From positions 1 to 6,670 of the forward strand of contig USJI01000062.1 of the NCBI GenBank assembly GCA_900554975.1: DNA of 6,670 nt, written 5' to 3'. The stretch comes from an uncultured Ruminococcus sp. (GTDB taxonomy: Bacteria > Bacillota > Clostridia > Oscillospirales > Ruminococcaceae). Position numbers and translations under genes: made by a program. Positions 2,232 through 6,670 of this stretch are shown here, in pieces (positions within the stretch are counted from its first letter, which is position 1; the number at the start of each line of letters is the position of its first letter). A model generated the notes under the pieces. It was not told the DNA's origin and did no database searches. It saw only the letters and a program-made list of their open reading frames with translations.

Positions 2232-2264
2232 CAAAAAGTCACTCTGTTTTTATGCAGAGTGACT
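2232..2264 (-). terminator. Rho-independent terminator after spoVM
   Basis: Ten perfectly paired bases (AGTCACTCTG with CAGAGTGACT, arms 2255-2264 and 2237-2246) enclose an 8-nt loop and are followed on the minus strand by TTTT. It begins 12 nt beyond the spoVM stop and closes the phosphatase-kinase-rsgA-thiN-spoVM operon. It lies 30 bp upstream of the next promoter, so it insulates the CMD-cupin operon from read-through. On the plus strand there is no gene that needs it. Confidence 0.9.
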
Positions 2265-2275
2265 AAATGATATTT

Positions 2276-2365
2276 TTATTCAGTTTGTTCTTCCTTTTTG
2301 ATTCTGAAAATCATTCTGAGTAAACCGGACAAAATTTTCGGACTTTTTACAATTACAACTTTCAT
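2276..2365 (-). CDS. spoVM: Stage V sporulation protein SpoVM-like micro-protein, 29 aa
   Basis: A 29-codon gene with ATG at 2365, GGAGG eight bases upstream (2374-2378) and TAA at 2276-2278, followed by a strong terminator. The product begins MKVVIVKSPKILSGLLR, then MIFRIKKEEQTE. It aligns without gaps to Bacillus subtilis SpoVM (MKFYTIKLPKFLGGIVR...) over the first 17 residues, sharing M1, K2, K7, P9, K10, L12, G14 and R17. P9 is the residue known to be needed for SpoVM to find the curved forespore membrane. SpoVM is an amphipathic helix that anchors the SpoIVA coat base layer on the forespore. Position also fits: spoVM follows thiN in B. subtilis. The C-terminus is three residues longer and more charged than the 26-residue Bacillus protein. 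Identification rests on alignment from memory plus synteny. Confidence 0.85.
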   Translation of the reverse strand: MKVVIVKSPKILSGLLRMIFRIKKEEQTE

Positions 2366-2385
2366 AGTAAGAGCCTCCAATCAAG

Positions 2386-2401
2386 ATTATAGTTTATTAT
2401 A
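2386..2401 (-). promoter_or_regulatory. Tandem TATAAT boxes upstream of spoVM, possible promoter
   Basis: Two TATAAT hexamers (2396-2401 and 2386-2391) lie in the 45-bp gap between thiN and spoVM. The upstream box has only a poor -35 candidate (ATGAAC, 18-bp spacing). The downstream box would start transcription on top of the ribosome binding site. In Bacillus, spoVM has its own sigma-E promoter, but no convincing sigma-E element could be matched here. AT-richness alone could explain both boxes. Confidence 0.3.
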
Positions 2402-2410
2402 TTCTGATTT

Positions 2411-3052
2411 TCAGATTTGGTTCATATCTTTTGAATAAATTATAAGCAAAATGCCCTTTTCCAGTGAAATAACGCCTGATTTTCCCGTAACTTTATTGCT
2501 TACACCAAGCGGAAAACTGCTTTTGAGAACGGCATCTTTCAGCGGATACTGAAAACCCGTTGCGGTAATCCCTGAGCATTCCTCGGTATAGGCGAACATT
2601 GAAAAGTAATATCCGTTCATACGGCTGTAAACCTTTATTCCCGGTCCCTGCATGGTAACATGGTTTCCGTCATCAATAAGCTCCCCGTAAGCGCCATGCC
2701 CGAGAATATATCTCAGAGTCTGTATATTTGCTATCGTATGATCCATTCTTCCGCCGGTTGCACCGCATATAACAATATGTTTAAACCCTCTGTTAAGTGC
2801 AAGCTTTACTGCAAGCATGGTATCGGTATCGTCTTTCTGTTCCGGATGTCTGATTATCTCACAGTCATCAGGAAGTGTCTTTTTATATGTATCAAAATCG
2901 CCTATCAGAACGTCCGGCTTTATCCCAAGTTTTTTTGCCAGAGCATAGCCACCATCCGCACAGATAACATAACGATTACTGTCAAATCCAAGTTCCGAAC
3001 ACTTTGCATCAGGTGAACCTGCAAAAATATAGCATTTTATATTCTTTCCCAA
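2411..3052 (-). CDS. thiN: Thiamine pyrophosphokinase
   Basis: Transfers pyrophosphate from ATP to thiamine to give thiamine pyrophosphate (EC 2.7.6.2), acting in the cytosol. The 213-residue length is normal. The N-terminal catalytic domain shows ICADGGYALAKKLGIKPDVLIGDFDT (residues 30-55, with D33 and the GDFDT motif), then HPEQKDDTDTMLAV (69-82, acidic cluster D74, D75, D77) and CGATGGRMDHTIANIQ (96-111). The C-terminal part is the thiamin-binding beta-sandwich. The start is a TTG at 3052, placed directly after the rsgA TAA stop with no gap; GGGAG (3062-3066) lies nine bases upstream inside rsgA, and no ATG in frame would retain the first motif. It is co-transcribed with rsgA and followed by spoVM. 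No TPP riboswitch is seen, as expected for a gene inside an operon. Confidence 0.96.
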   Translation of the reverse strand: MGKNIKCYIFAGSPDAKCSELGFDSNRYVICADGGYALAKKLGIKPDVLIGDFDTYKKTLPDDCEIIRHPEQKDDTDTMLAVKLALNRGFKHIVICGATGGRMDHTIANIQTLRYILGHGAYGELIDDGNHVTMQGPGIKVYSRMNGYYFSMFAYTEECSGITATGFQYPLKDAVLKSSFPLGVSNKVTGKSGVISLEKGILLIIYSKDMNQI

Positions 3053-3919
3053 TTATTTCAGCTCCCATTCCCTGATTTGTTTTGCCTCATCATACATACT
3101 GCAATAACTTTCATGTCTGCTTTGAGGAATTTCCCCATTTTCAACTGCTTCAATTATCCTGCACCCTTTTTCCGTTGTGTGTGAACAGTCACGGAAACGG
3201 CAGTCGCCCTCATACTGTCTGAACTCTCTGAAACAGTCGGCAAGGTCTTCCTTTCTGATGATATTGTATTTATTCGTTTCAAATGTTGAAAATCCCGGAG
3301 TATCTGCAATATATCCGCCCCACGGCAGTTTGTAAAGCTCAGCGTGTCTTGTGGTATGCTTTCCTCGTCCGAGCTTCTTGCTTATTTCACCTGTCGGAAT
3401 GTTAAAATCTCCGCACACTTCATTTAAAAGTGTGGACTTTCCGACACCGCTGTTTCCGGTAAATGCACTTATCTTATCTTTCAGCAAAACTCTTATTTTC
3501 TCAGCAGGGTTGTCCGAATTATAGTCAATTGTATAAATTGAAATCCCTGTTTTTTCATATATTGAAACTATTCTGCTGCAATCTTCAATATCTGTCTTTG
3601 TTATAACTATAACAGGCTCAATATTCTGATATTCAGCAACAGCTATGAACTTATCAAGGAGCAGCATATTCGGTGAAGGTTCTGCAACAGATACAACAAA
3701 AATAAGCTGGTCAAGATTTGAAAGCGGCGGCCTTATAAGGTGATTTTTTCTCGGAAGTATTTCTGTAATGACTCCATCCTCAAAAACGGCTCTGTCACCG
3801 ACGCATGGAGCAATTCCCTTATTGCGGAAAACTCCCCTTGCCTTGCATTCATATACATTGTCGGAGGACTCTGTAAAATAGAGTCCTCCGATTGATTTAA
3901 CGATTATTCCCTCAGCCAT
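3053..3919 (-). CDS. rsgA: Ribosome small-subunit-dependent GTPase RsgA
   Basis: Circularly permuted GTPase that checks and completes late 30S subunit assembly; GTP hydrolysis is stimulated by the small subunit. The 288 residues hold an N-terminal OB-fold (about 1-65) for rRNA contact, then the permuted G-domain: G4 ITKTD (106-110), G1 GNSGVGKST (155-163), G2 region GRGKHTTRH (184-192) and G3 DTPG (206-209). The C-terminal zinc motif is C240-x4-C245-x-H247-x5-C253. G4 reads TKxD instead of NKxD, a variant I recall from Gram-positive RsgA proteins, so activity is expected. The ATG at 3919 follows the kinase stop by 2 bp with CGGAG (3927-3931) seven bases upstream, which means translational coupling. 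B. subtilis has the same prpC-prkC-rsgA order. Confidence 0.97.
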   Translation of the reverse strand: MAEGIIVKSIGGLYFTESSDNVYECKARGVFRNKGIAPCVGDRAVFEDGVITEILPRKNHLIRPPLSNLDQLIFVVSVAEPSPNMLLLDKFIAVAEYQNIEPVIVITKTDIEDCSRIVSIYEKTGISIYTIDYNSDNPAEKIRVLLKDKISAFTGNSGVGKSTLLNEVCGDFNIPTGEISKKLGRGKHTTRHAELYKLPWGGYIADTPGFSTFETNKYNIIRKEDLADCFREFRQYEGDCRFRDCSHTTEKGCRIIEAVENGEIPQSRHESYCSMYDEAKQIREWELK

Positions 3920-3921
3920 AA

Positions 3922-6126
3922 TTATTCTCCGCCTTCTTCCGAAGAAGAATCATCTGCCGGAGCTTCTGTTTCAGACTTCGGTGCTTCTGTTTCTGGTTCA
4001 GGAGCCTGTGTCTGTTCCGGTTCTTTATAGAGTCCGTCAACAATAGTAAATGCACCGTCTATATCTTCTTCAACAGCCGTGAACGTACCTTCTTCAAAAT
4101 TCATATTATACTTGCCGAGAACCGCCGTAAGATTGTTGCTGAGATTTGTCAGAACCATTGTGATTTCTTCATTGGTTCCCTTTCCTCTTACCGTTACAAG
4201 GTTTTCCTTTGAATAGTCAGCTGACAACGTGAAACTCTGATATATAGCAACACCGTTCTGATAAGCTGTTATAGTAAATCTTCCTGTTGCATTGCCCGGG
4301 AAGTAGAATTTCATATCCACATCGCCCTCAGGCTCTTTTCCTGTGCTGACCGTAAATGTAATAGTCGAATCAGCAGGAACTTTCTCACCGGATTTGATGC
4401 TCTGTTTCAGAATAGTTCCCTCTGCTTCGCTTGAGTCTTTCTTTTCAGTCTTTACACTGATTCCCCAGACGCCGCACTGAACTTTTGCATCTTCTATCTG
4501 TTTGCCGACAAAGTTAGTCATTTCAATTTCTTCAACATCAGAACCTTTGCTGACATATACAAGAACTGTTGAACCTGGTTTTACTTCCTCAAGTGCCGCC
4601 GGTTCTGTATCAAAAACAAGTTCCTCATCTACTTCATCATTCGCCTGATATTGGAATTCGACCTCCAGTCCGGCAGCCCTCAGAGCCTCTCCGGCAGTGA
4701 TATAATGGTAATTGATAACATTCGGAACTTTAATTGTCTTCGAACCCAGACTTACCTTTACCTTAACTATCTCGCCTTTCTTTACACCGTCACCCTCAGG
4801 AATACTCTGTTCAAAAATCTTATCTTTTTCAAGGTCTGAATATTCCGTTGAATCAACCTGTATATCAAGATTCGGATATGCTTCGTGTGCCTGATTGTAA
4901 TCCATTCCGACAAGCTGCGGCATAGCAAATTCCGATGAACTTTTCTTTCCCTCATCAGAAAATACGCCCTTTACAAGCGTTGCGATAAAGAATACTGCAA
5001 CCATTATAACAACAACCGTTACTGCTGACAAAACAGGAACGAAAAGTGACTTGCTTTTTGTTTCCTCCTCATCAAGGTCACTGTAATCCTCATCATAAGT
5101 ATCATACATTACATCGTCTTCAGAATACACGTCATTCTGAGGAACATTATGCTTTTCTGTATATTCATTTCTGTAATGATTCTGCTGGTTCTGCGGCGGT
5201 GTTTCTATATTTTCCGTAACAGGACGGAAATAACGTGTCCTCATTCCTGAATCCTGATTTTTGCTTTTTGTAATATAGCCAAACCTCACATCAGGGTCAG
5301 CCTTGAACCTGTCAATATCCCTGAGCATTTCAAGTGCTGTCTGATATCTGTCCGCAGGATTCTTTTCCATAGCGTGAACTATAATTTCTTCAAGCGGTTC
5401 AGGAATATCCGGATTTATTCTTCTTGGAAGCGTAGCAACATTCTGCATATGCATAACAGCGATAGAAACCGGATTATCTGTATCAAACGGCTTCTGACCT
5501 GTCAGCATCTCATAAAGCATTACACCAACAGAATAAAGGTCGCTCTTGGCATCTGTAACATCTCCCCTTGCCTGTTCCGGGCTTATATAATGCACCGTTC
5601 CGATAGCCTGGTCAGTTGCAGTTTTGCCTTCTTCCCTTGCAAATTTTGCAATACCGAAATCCATGACCTTTATAGTTCCGTCTGTGAACATCATGATGTT
5701 CTGCGGCTTTATGTCACGATGAACAATACCTCTTTCATGAGCATGCTGCAACGCCCTTAAAATCTGGGTTACGAAATGCACAGCGTCTTTCCAGCTGAGC
5801 ACACGCTCATTTTCTATATATTCTTTCAGCGTTATGCCGTCAATATATTCCATTATAATAAACTGTATTTTATCAGAAAATCCCACATCATATATTTTTA
5901 CAATGTTAGGATGTGACAAAACAGCAATAGCTTTCGATTCATTTCTGAATCTTCTCAGGAATTCCTCACTTTCGGCAAATTCCTTTTTAAGAATCTTTAT
6001 TGCAATAACCTTGTTGTCAACAATATCAATACCCTTATAAACGTCAGCCATTCCACCCTCGCCGATAAGCTCGGTTATTTCATAGCGTCCGTCCAGTCTT
6101 TTCCCAATATTTTTATCCTTTTCCAT
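3922..6126 (-). CDS. prkC: PASTA-domain Ser/Thr protein kinase, PrkC/PknB type
   Basis: Membrane Hanks-type kinase that senses muropeptides or lipid II and phosphorylates cytosolic targets controlling wall growth and dormancy. The 734 residues contain an N-terminal kinase domain (about 15-275) with the glycine loop GEGGMA (22-27), K44, E63, catalytic HRDIKPQN (136-143), DFG (156-158) and an activation loop with T169, T171 and T177 before SPE. An acidic Tyr/Asp/Glu juxtamembrane stretch (334-355) precedes one membrane helix (about 361-385). Outside the cell follow three PASTA domains (about 399-461, 463-528, 533-597). A further extracellular segment (about 602-698) does not look like PASTA, and a Pro/Glu/Thr-rich acidic tail (701-734) ends the protein. 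The ATG at 6126 has GGAGG five bases upstream (6132-6136). The cognate PP2C phosphatase gene lies 25 bp upstream and rsgA 2 bp downstream. Confidence 0.97.
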   Translation of the reverse strand: MEKDKNIGKRLDGRYEITELIGEGGMADVYKGIDIVDNKVIAIKILKKEFAESEEFLRRFRNESKAIAVLSHPNIVKIYDVGFSDKIQFIIMEYIDGITLKEYIENERVLSWKDAVHFVTQILRALQHAHERGIVHRDIKPQNIMMFTDGTIKVMDFGIAKFAREEGKTATDQAIGTVHYISPEQARGDVTDAKSDLYSVGVMLYEMLTGQKPFDTDNPVSIAVMHMQNVATLPRRINPDIPEPLEEIIVHAMEKNPADRYQTALEMLRDIDRFKADPDVRFGYITKSKNQDSGMRTRYFRPVTENIETPPQNQQNHYRNEYTEKHNVPQNDVYSEDDVMYDTYDEDYSDLDEEETKSKSLFVPVLSAVTVVVIMVAVFFIATLVKGVFSDEGKKSSSEFAMPQLVGMDYNQAHEAYPNLDIQVDSTEYSDLEKDKIFEQSIPEGDGVKKGEIVKVKVSLGSKTIKVPNVINYHYITAGEALRAAGLEVEFQYQANDEVDEELVFDTEPAALEEVKPGSTVLVYVSKGSDVEEIEMTNFVGKQIEDAKVQCGVWGISVKTEKKDSSEAEGTILKQSIKSGEKVPADSTITFTVSTGKEPEGDVDMKFYFPGNATGRFTITAYQNGVAIYQSFTLSADYSKENLVTVRGKGTNEEITMVLTNLSNNLTAVLGKYNMNFEEGTFTAVEEDIDGAFTIVDGLYKEPEQTQAPEPETEAPKSETEAPADDSSSEEGGE

Positions 6127-6151: not shown

Positions 6152-6670
6152 TTAATCGGTTATTACTGCCAGGGTTATATTATCTCGTCCGCCCTTGCTG
6201 AGTGCAAGATCTGTAAGTGCTCTGGACACTTCATCAACAGGGGTGGATTTTATAACCTCATAAATCTCACTGTCACTGCAATAACCCGAAAGTCCGTCTG
6301 AGCAAAGAAGTATCATAAATTTATTCTCACGCTTCATACGGAAAAAGTCAGGCTTGACAGTCTTTTCCACGCCCACAGCTTTTGTAAGCATATTTCGCTT
6401 AGGGTGGCTTGAAACCTCATCAGGAGCAATTTTCCCCTGCATCAAAAGCAGATTCACCAGCGTATGATCTGAAGTTATCAGATGAATTCCGCTTTCATCA
6501 ATATAATATGCACGGCTGTCGCCGACATTTATTATATATATATATTCTTTGTCCACATATGCAGCCACACACGTTGTTCCCATTCCGAAACTTCTGTAAT
6601 TCATTCGTGCTGTTGTATAGACAATTGAATTGGCGGCAGATATTGAAGCTGTCATAAGCTGCCTTACTCC
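6152..6670 (-). CDS. prpC: PP2C-family Ser/Thr phosphatase, 3' part
   Basis: Metal-dependent PP2C (PPM) phosphatase that reverses phosphorylation by the neighbouring PASTA kinase. The frame is open to the right edge (the codons before the ATG at 6655 read GVRQL), so this ATG is internal and the gene starts outside the window. The 172 residues present carry the family motifs GMGTT, VGDSRAYYI, TSDHTLV, HPKRNMLTKAVG, LLCSDGLSG and GGRDNITLAVI; these include the metal-binding Asp residues of SDG and GRDN. Compared with the usual 240-250 residues, about 70 N-terminal residues, including the DGMGG motif, are missing. It ends 25 bp before the kinase start. The gene is called stp or prpC in related genomes. 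Confidence 0.95.
   Translation of the reverse strand, partial: GVRQLMTASISAANSIVYTTARMNYRSFGMGTTCVAAYVDKEYIYIINVGDSRAYYIDESGIHLITSDHTLVNLLLMQGKIAPDEVSSHPKRNMLTKAVGVEKTVKPDFFRMKRENKFMILLCSDGLSGYCSDSEIYEVIKSTPVDEVSRALTDLALSKGGRDNITLAVITD

Follow-up and report, generated by a model that had tools for sequence, protein, structure and literature searches.

The short open reading frame (ORF) on the minus strand at positions 2276-2365 of the 6,670-nt stretch of DNA analysed here (the window) is spoVM, an ordinary member of a known family, and its frame is under purifying selection. The encoded peptide is likely an amphipathic helix on the outer forespore membrane that helps to anchor SpoIVA, together with SipL, during assembly of the spore coat by the mother cell, a reading to which we assign a probability of about 0.9. 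The gene itself is a normal family member; the part worth following is its predicted promoter, which differs at the -35 element from the one preceding the sipL-spoIVA genes of related genomes. The features of the window are collected in Table 1.

Table 1. Genes and predicted signals in the window.
Feature	Position	Strand	Details
spoVM coding sequence	2276..2365	minus	29 codons plus stop, ATG start; peptide MKVVIVKSPKILSGLLRMIFRIKKEEQTE
Ribosome binding site GGAGG	2374..2378	minus	8 nt before the spoVM ATG
Hairpin resembling an intrinsic terminator	2237..2264	minus	10 pairs plus T tail; downstream of spoVM
Predicted spoVM -10 box GAATATAAT	2396..2404	minus	from enrichment upstream of spoVM genes and the information profile
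Predicted -35 AC (GAACCAAA)	2420..2421	minus	within the terminal thiN codons
thiN, thiamine diphosphokinase (upstream neighbour)	2411..3052	minus	TIGR01378, 148 bits (cut-off 76.4)
rsgA, ribosome small subunit-dependent GTPase A	3053..3919	minus	TIGR00157, 210.9 bits
PASTA-domain Ser/Thr kinase (PrkC/PknB type)	3922..6126	minus	NF033483, 564.3 bits
Stp1-type PP2C phosphatase	6152..6670	minus	NF033484, 184.9 bits; cut by the window end

The 29-residue peptide matched NF033436 (SpoVM_broad, NCBIfam), a curated equivalog model, along all 26 of its positions (profile positions 1-26) at 46.5 bits, over the cut-off of 31 (E = 2.6e-12), with a tail reaching three residues past the model; the SpoVM identity proposed in the first-pass annotation is thus borne out by a profile search. 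A Pfam-A profile search of the peptide gave no matches, and no SpoVM came up when the single peptide was searched against the PDB; the B. subtilis structure (PDB 2mvh) was retrieved by an alignment of SpoVM sequences as query, at an E value of only 0.074. The signals described earlier for the ORF are all present: the ATG is preceded by a GGAGG ribosome binding site, and the gene is followed by a terminator-like hairpin. Similar purine-rich ribosome binding sites precede spoVM in many relatives, and the region 2100-2700 contains two terminator-like sites, as compared with a mean of 0.4 in shuffled sequences.

Comparison with the 26-residue B. subtilis SpoVM, whose first 17 residues are given by PDB 2mvh, yielded eight identities (M1, K2, K7, P9, K10, L12, G14 and R17), exactly those that had been read from the sequence at first pass. 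The two peptides are also alike in having an amphipathic stretch after Pro9: the window peptide consists of a Lys-rich N-terminal part, Pro9 and then this stretch, and its hydrophobic moment over residues 10-24, computed from sequence alone, is 0.73, as compared with 0.34 in shuffles (p = 0.016) and with 0.60 for B. subtilis SpoVM. Pro9 is the sole fully conserved residue in a published SpoVM alignment (PMC5607322); it is kept in the window peptide and in C. difficile SpoVM, which belongs to the same family, and is invariant across 13 aligned sequences. Among the residues K2, I6 and I15, which are functionally important (PMC5607322), K2 is retained, while positions 6 and 15 hold V and L in place of the I6 and I15 of B. 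subtilis, conservative changes that are present in relatives too. The window peptide further differs from its B. subtilis counterpart in S8 and in an acidic tail, EEQTE, that brings it to 29 residues. The longer C-terminus, KKEEQTE, had been singled out as unlike Bacillus; this is correct, but such a tail is typical of near relatives: the window and five of the six near orthologues have KKEExTE, and the sixth (G393) has KKEGTSE. Position 17 is C rather than R in two genomes from the genus of G001 (L043 and L067). At several other loci (L070, L071, L072, L081, L084, L086 and L060) the spoVM start appears to be TTG or GTG, and gene callers might overlook the spoVM genes of relatives more often for this reason.

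On the minus strand the genes follow the order Stp1-type phosphatase, PASTA kinase, rsgA, thiN and spoVM, ending in the terminator-like hairpin, with 45 nt between the thiN stop and the spoVM ATG. The phosphatase scores below its model's cut-off of 230, as expected for a gene that is cut. Positions 2133-1390 hold a gene fusing a CMD-family (carboxymuconolactone-decarboxylase) domain to a cupin, with a flavodoxin gene (1385-903) adjoining, and no viral contigs encoding the RsgA were found. The place after thiN, which is also that of spoVM in B. subtilis, had been part of the original argument for the gene, and the neighbour is indeed ThiN. An RsgA search of 396 genomes from the family of G152, of which 44 matched at E = 1e-115 or better, gave the seven nearest genomes, and six of these keep the arrangement (identities for the seven: G272 81%, G218 77%, G024 76%, G393 75%, G359 75%, G319 74% and G143 72%). 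No spoVM was found within the 7 kb read at the locus of G319, where a repeat-rich stretch (L094) follows thiN at the place at which relatives carry spoVM. Among the 20 closest genomes by RsgA, spoVM lies near rsgA in 15, following thiN in 12 of them and a second kinase gene in three (G387, G349 and G197); it was not found near rsgA in G113, G308, G319, G321 and G223, and a whole-genome search of G113 gave no SpoVM. Five relatives (L089 to L093) have rsgA between two PASTA kinase genes, and in L091 to L093 the second kinase, not thiN, precedes spoVM. A ThiN query of the GTDB collection returned 19 loci, mostly from Ruminococcus, Ruminococcaceae, Clostridiales or Clostridia and including two from Lachnospiraceae, and a single SpoVM match was found in each of 17 of the 19 genomes.

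The reading frame, whose conservation in close relatives had been put forward as a check, is conserved: pN/pS is 0.17 across seven sequences (with pS at 0.83, close to saturation) and 0.23 when pooled over 43 distinct coding sequences, window included, a set of loci fitting the SpoVM pattern from which 5 of the 17 ThiN-search loci, lacking that fit, were left out. Frame-disrupting indels were absent from seven near orthologues; among the SpoVM matches listed, G050 and G199 carry one in-frame TAA each. With just 29 codons and no Pfam match, the ORF might be suspected of having arisen by chance, or of being conserved as non-coding sequence. Against this stand the strength of its match to a curated equivalog model and the pattern of variation, with 27 of 28 columns variable at the third codon position, as compared with 12 at the first and 4 at the second; the window also drew no RNA-family match at curated thresholds. 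Together the NF033436 match and the codon-position pattern rule out a chance or non-coding ORF, and we give that explanation negligible weight.

In other genomes of the family spoVM is linked to the genes of its presumed partners. At least 28 family genomes have it on the strand of spoIVA and 1.6 to 3.0 kb ahead of that gene (a lower bound, from 35 genomes picked by eye among the matches listed, 7 of them without the arrangement). In 5 of 5 loci fetched (L243 to L247) the intervening gene was related to the sipL-like gene (24 to 34% identity over its length), which in the two genomes tested encodes a Pfam SipL domain and a LysM domain. Thus, in the five loci read, spoVM, sipL and spoIVA form a three-gene cluster of the coat base. 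SpoIVA works with SipL in C. difficile (PMC6436350), and a sipL-like gene precedes spoIVA in the window's relatives too.

SpoVM also co-occurs with other sporulation proteins. In 197 genomes from the family of G001 (those without a match being identified from the numbering of the handles), 161 have SpoVM, counted at E = 0.001 or better (141 of them score above the cut-off), and 168 have SpoIVA; 152 genomes have both, 9 SpoVM only, 16 SpoIVA only and 20 neither, an association with a Fisher odds ratio of 21 (p = 2.7e-11, ignoring kinship). The next comparison covers 45 genomes: those of the ThiN search, the SpoVM-only genomes, two others from the genus of G001, and 16 out of the 20 in which both proteins are missing. 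A SigE-grade match, defined by our own line of 273 bits or more (14 of the 45 reach the curated cut-off of 348.6), occurs in 26 of 27 SpoVM-positive genomes, with G013 the sole exception, as compared with 0 of 18 SpoVM-negative ones; conversely, 18 of the 19 genomes without such a match are also without SpoVM. All nine SpoVM-only genomes reach this SigE line (274 to 356 bits), and their missing SpoIVA is therefore likely an assembly loss. Spo0A exceeds its cut-off in 18 of the 27 SpoVM-positive and 5 of the 18 SpoVM-negative genomes. In 13 of the 45, SigG-grade matches were found in 7 of 7 SpoVM-positive versus 0 of 6 SpoVM-negative genomes (364 to 413 bits, below the curated cut-off of 457), and SASP in 6 of 7 versus 0 of 6.

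Closer to the window, SpoIVA is present in all 7 nearest genomes by RsgA and SigE in 5; for the 20 closest the counts are 18 and 16, with E = 1e-60 or better for SigE, which was not found in G218, G319, G113 and G308. G113 and G308 lack SpoIVA, SigE and, at the locus, spoVM; all three are present in G387, G349 and G197, whose gene order is the same. SpoIVA is present without spoVM at the rsgA-thiN locus in G319, G321 and G223, and G218, among the seven nearest, has SpoVM and SpoIVA with no SigE match. In two relatives a sigK-like gene appears to be split into two pieces about 8 kb apart (G134:C1:1477031-1477384 and 1485314-1485598; G055:C10:4972-5292 and 13819-14202), which recalls the skin elements of other spore formers.

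Alignment of the thiN-spoVM gaps of the nearest relatives first revealed the box GAATATAAT. Allowing one mismatch, it occurs within 150 nt upstream of 25 of 55 spoVM genes, which are non-independent, as compared with 3.0 in 50 shuffles (sd 1.8, most 7). The same box precedes the sipL-like gene ahead of spoIVA in 16 of 20 genomes, six times exactly (shuffle level 1.7, sd 1.2, most 5), with two of the 16 boxes at 146 and 160 nt from the start. The -35 elements were compared for boxes within 110 nt of the start, in rows chosen by the -10 box alone (15 for sipL, and 20 for spoVM after removal of 4 near-duplicates from 24). Before spoVM, AC stands at -17 or -18 in 17 of 20 rows and ATA at -18 in none, whereas before sipL ATA stands at -18 in 14 of 15 rows and AC at -17 or -18 in none (AC at -16 in 5 of 15). 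This contrast, of which a limited literature search found no earlier report, resembles the published difference between sigma-K and sigma-E promoters of C. difficile, which share a common -10 and carry AC and ATA, respectively, at the -35 (PMC3789822); a sigma-K-type promoter of sigK combines the -10 CATATAAT with AC (PMC3789822). Where the AC box falls in or beside the last thiN codons, as it does in the window, G272, G218 and G359, it may owe some of its conservation to ThiN; genomes whose spoVM is distant from thiN (G024) or comes after another gene (G387, G349 and G197) have the box as well.

Scans with these motifs indicate how far the classes can be carried. The B. subtilis sigma-E consensus, applied to the 150 nt upstream of 43 spoVM genes, gave a mean best score of 7.7 versus 8.3 in shuffles; a score of at least 12 out of 15 was reached by 6 of 43 upstream regions, where about 2 were expected (4.6% per sequence), and one of 13 by none. 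Within about 480 nt upstream of spoIVA itself, GAATATAAT occurs in 1 of 26 cases, fewer than in shuffles (4.4), its rarity there following from the sipL-like gene that lies between; it was found upstream of 0 of 5 SASP genes and 1 of 9 sigE genes. In 400 kb of G361, the sole site combining [GT][AC]ATA with GAATA[TCA]A[AC]T is that of sipL-spoIVA. A looser ATA scan of the same sequence returned five gene-linked sites (sipL-spoIVA, a CwlD-like cortex amidase scoring 195.8 bits, below its cut-off of 221.55, GlgA, an S1-domain protein and one short ORF), and a looser AC scan six (RnfC, an acetyltransferase, an AMP-binding enzyme, a DUF2201 protein and two short ORFs). A further scan took in 679 kb, made up of stretches of G024, G272 and G143 plus the window, and counted only those sites that have an ORF no more than about 130 nt away. 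Here the exact AC form precedes the spoVM genes of G272 and the window only, and the exact ATA form precedes four ORFs, none a recognised sporulation gene and one of them inside the kinase gene; in G272 the ATA form ahead of the sipL-like gene has one mismatch. Upstream of the sigK-like genes of 20 mostly distant genomes, AC was found twice and ATA once, versus 0.4 and 0.3 in shuffles. The ATA form fits a sigma-E class at sipL-spoIVA and perhaps cwlD; the box alone is not specific, and the AC class is uncalibrated. A second exact GAATATAAT lies at 2180-2172, before the CMD/cupin gene, with neither an AC nor an ATA -35.

The predicted promoter suggests that the mother cell expresses spoVM, and the factor in charge may be sigma-K, or else sigma-E acting with SpoIIID. 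The spoVM gene is turned on by sigma-E in B. subtilis (PMC517825), where SpoIIID is also required for it (PMC5607322), and is sigma-E controlled in C. difficile (PMC5607322), whereas the -35 predicted here is of the AC type and unlike that of sipL-spoIVA. With AC before the one gene and ATA before the other, spoVM may be switched on later than spoIVA. A bolder reading is that in this Ruminococcus-type lineage spoVM has left the sigma-E programme for a sigma-K-type promoter of its own (AC-N16-AATATAAT) while sipL-spoIVA has one of sigma-E type, so that SpoVM would come after SpoIVA and serve late encasement or cortex control, not act as the first coat landmark; we hold this tentatively, and think it rather unlikely. 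A SpoIIID site at the -35 together with sigma-E is possible, and so is a housekeeping sigma-A promoter, given that the -10 contains TATAAT and that an exact GAATATAAT also precedes an unrelated gene.

Two further explanations accept the gene and question its use. It could be a relic, not yet decayed, in a lineage that has lost sporulation. Family genomes without sporulation genes do exist, namely the 20 of 197 with neither SpoVM nor SpoIVA, and the absence of a SigE match from G218, which keeps SpoVM and SpoIVA, and from G319, which keeps SpoIVA without SpoVM at the locus, would fit such a loss, although incomplete assembly could also explain both. The low pN/pS, the conservation of the ribosome binding site, promoter element and tail, the SpoIVA and SigE of the nearest genomes and the near-absence of SpoVM where no SigE-grade match is found all argue against a relic, which we therefore consider improbable. 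Alternatively, SpoVM may be kept for a role outside sporulation, such as membrane-curvature sensing or the tuning of FtsH in growing cells: 9 of the 161 SpoVM-positive genomes are without SpoIVA, spoVM ends a housekeeping cluster (phosphatase, kinase, rsgA and thiN), and its -10 box contains TATAAT, like housekeeping promoters. However, those nine genomes all have a SigE-grade match and have likely lost SpoIVA in assembly, 18 of the 19 genomes without SigE are without SpoVM, and spoVM is linked to sipL-spoIVA in other genomes, making such a role very improbable.

We therefore favour the reading of the gene as a working part of the spore-coat base. In B. subtilis, SpoVM is an amphipathic helix on the outer forespore membrane, where it anchors SpoIVA. 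By analogy, the window's SpoVM would lie as such a helix on the same membrane and, once bound, would help to anchor SpoIVA and, with SpoIVA, also SipL; it would act in the mother cell, presumably its site of expression, during the building of the spore coat. The remaining genes of the sporulation pathway are probably present in the genome from which the window comes, and this Ruminococcus-like bacterium likely can form true spores. SpoVM is largely dispensable in C. difficile (PMC5607322), so its importance here may be small.

The first-pass annotation had connected the gene with cryptic sporulation; SpoVM does support a spore programme, but the idea is less new than it appeared, as sporulation of R. 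bromii, a gut Ruminococcus, is in print (PMC5814915). Few Oscillospirales assemblies were classed as spore-forming by one prediction tool, 1 of 34 in one set (PMC12536801), and spoVM goes unnamed in the main texts of PMC12536801 and PMC11536998. The gene is rarely recognised in annotation, with 70 missed copies listed by Galperin and co-workers in 2012 (PMC3533761), the only paper that one literature search on SpoVM and sporulation in ruminococci returned. Because spoVM is so often missed, a confirmed copy with a conserved frame, a promoter element and a terminator is a good marker, and the sharpness with which SpoVM tracks SigE in the 45 genomes makes it usable as such in assemblies. In the coat assembly of Bacillus, SpoVM acts with or before SpoIVA, and the contrast between the spoVM and sipL promoters lets this order be probed elsewhere. 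For the organism itself, the confirmed spoVM marks an uncultured Ruminococcus-like lineage as one that keeps the sporulation programme.
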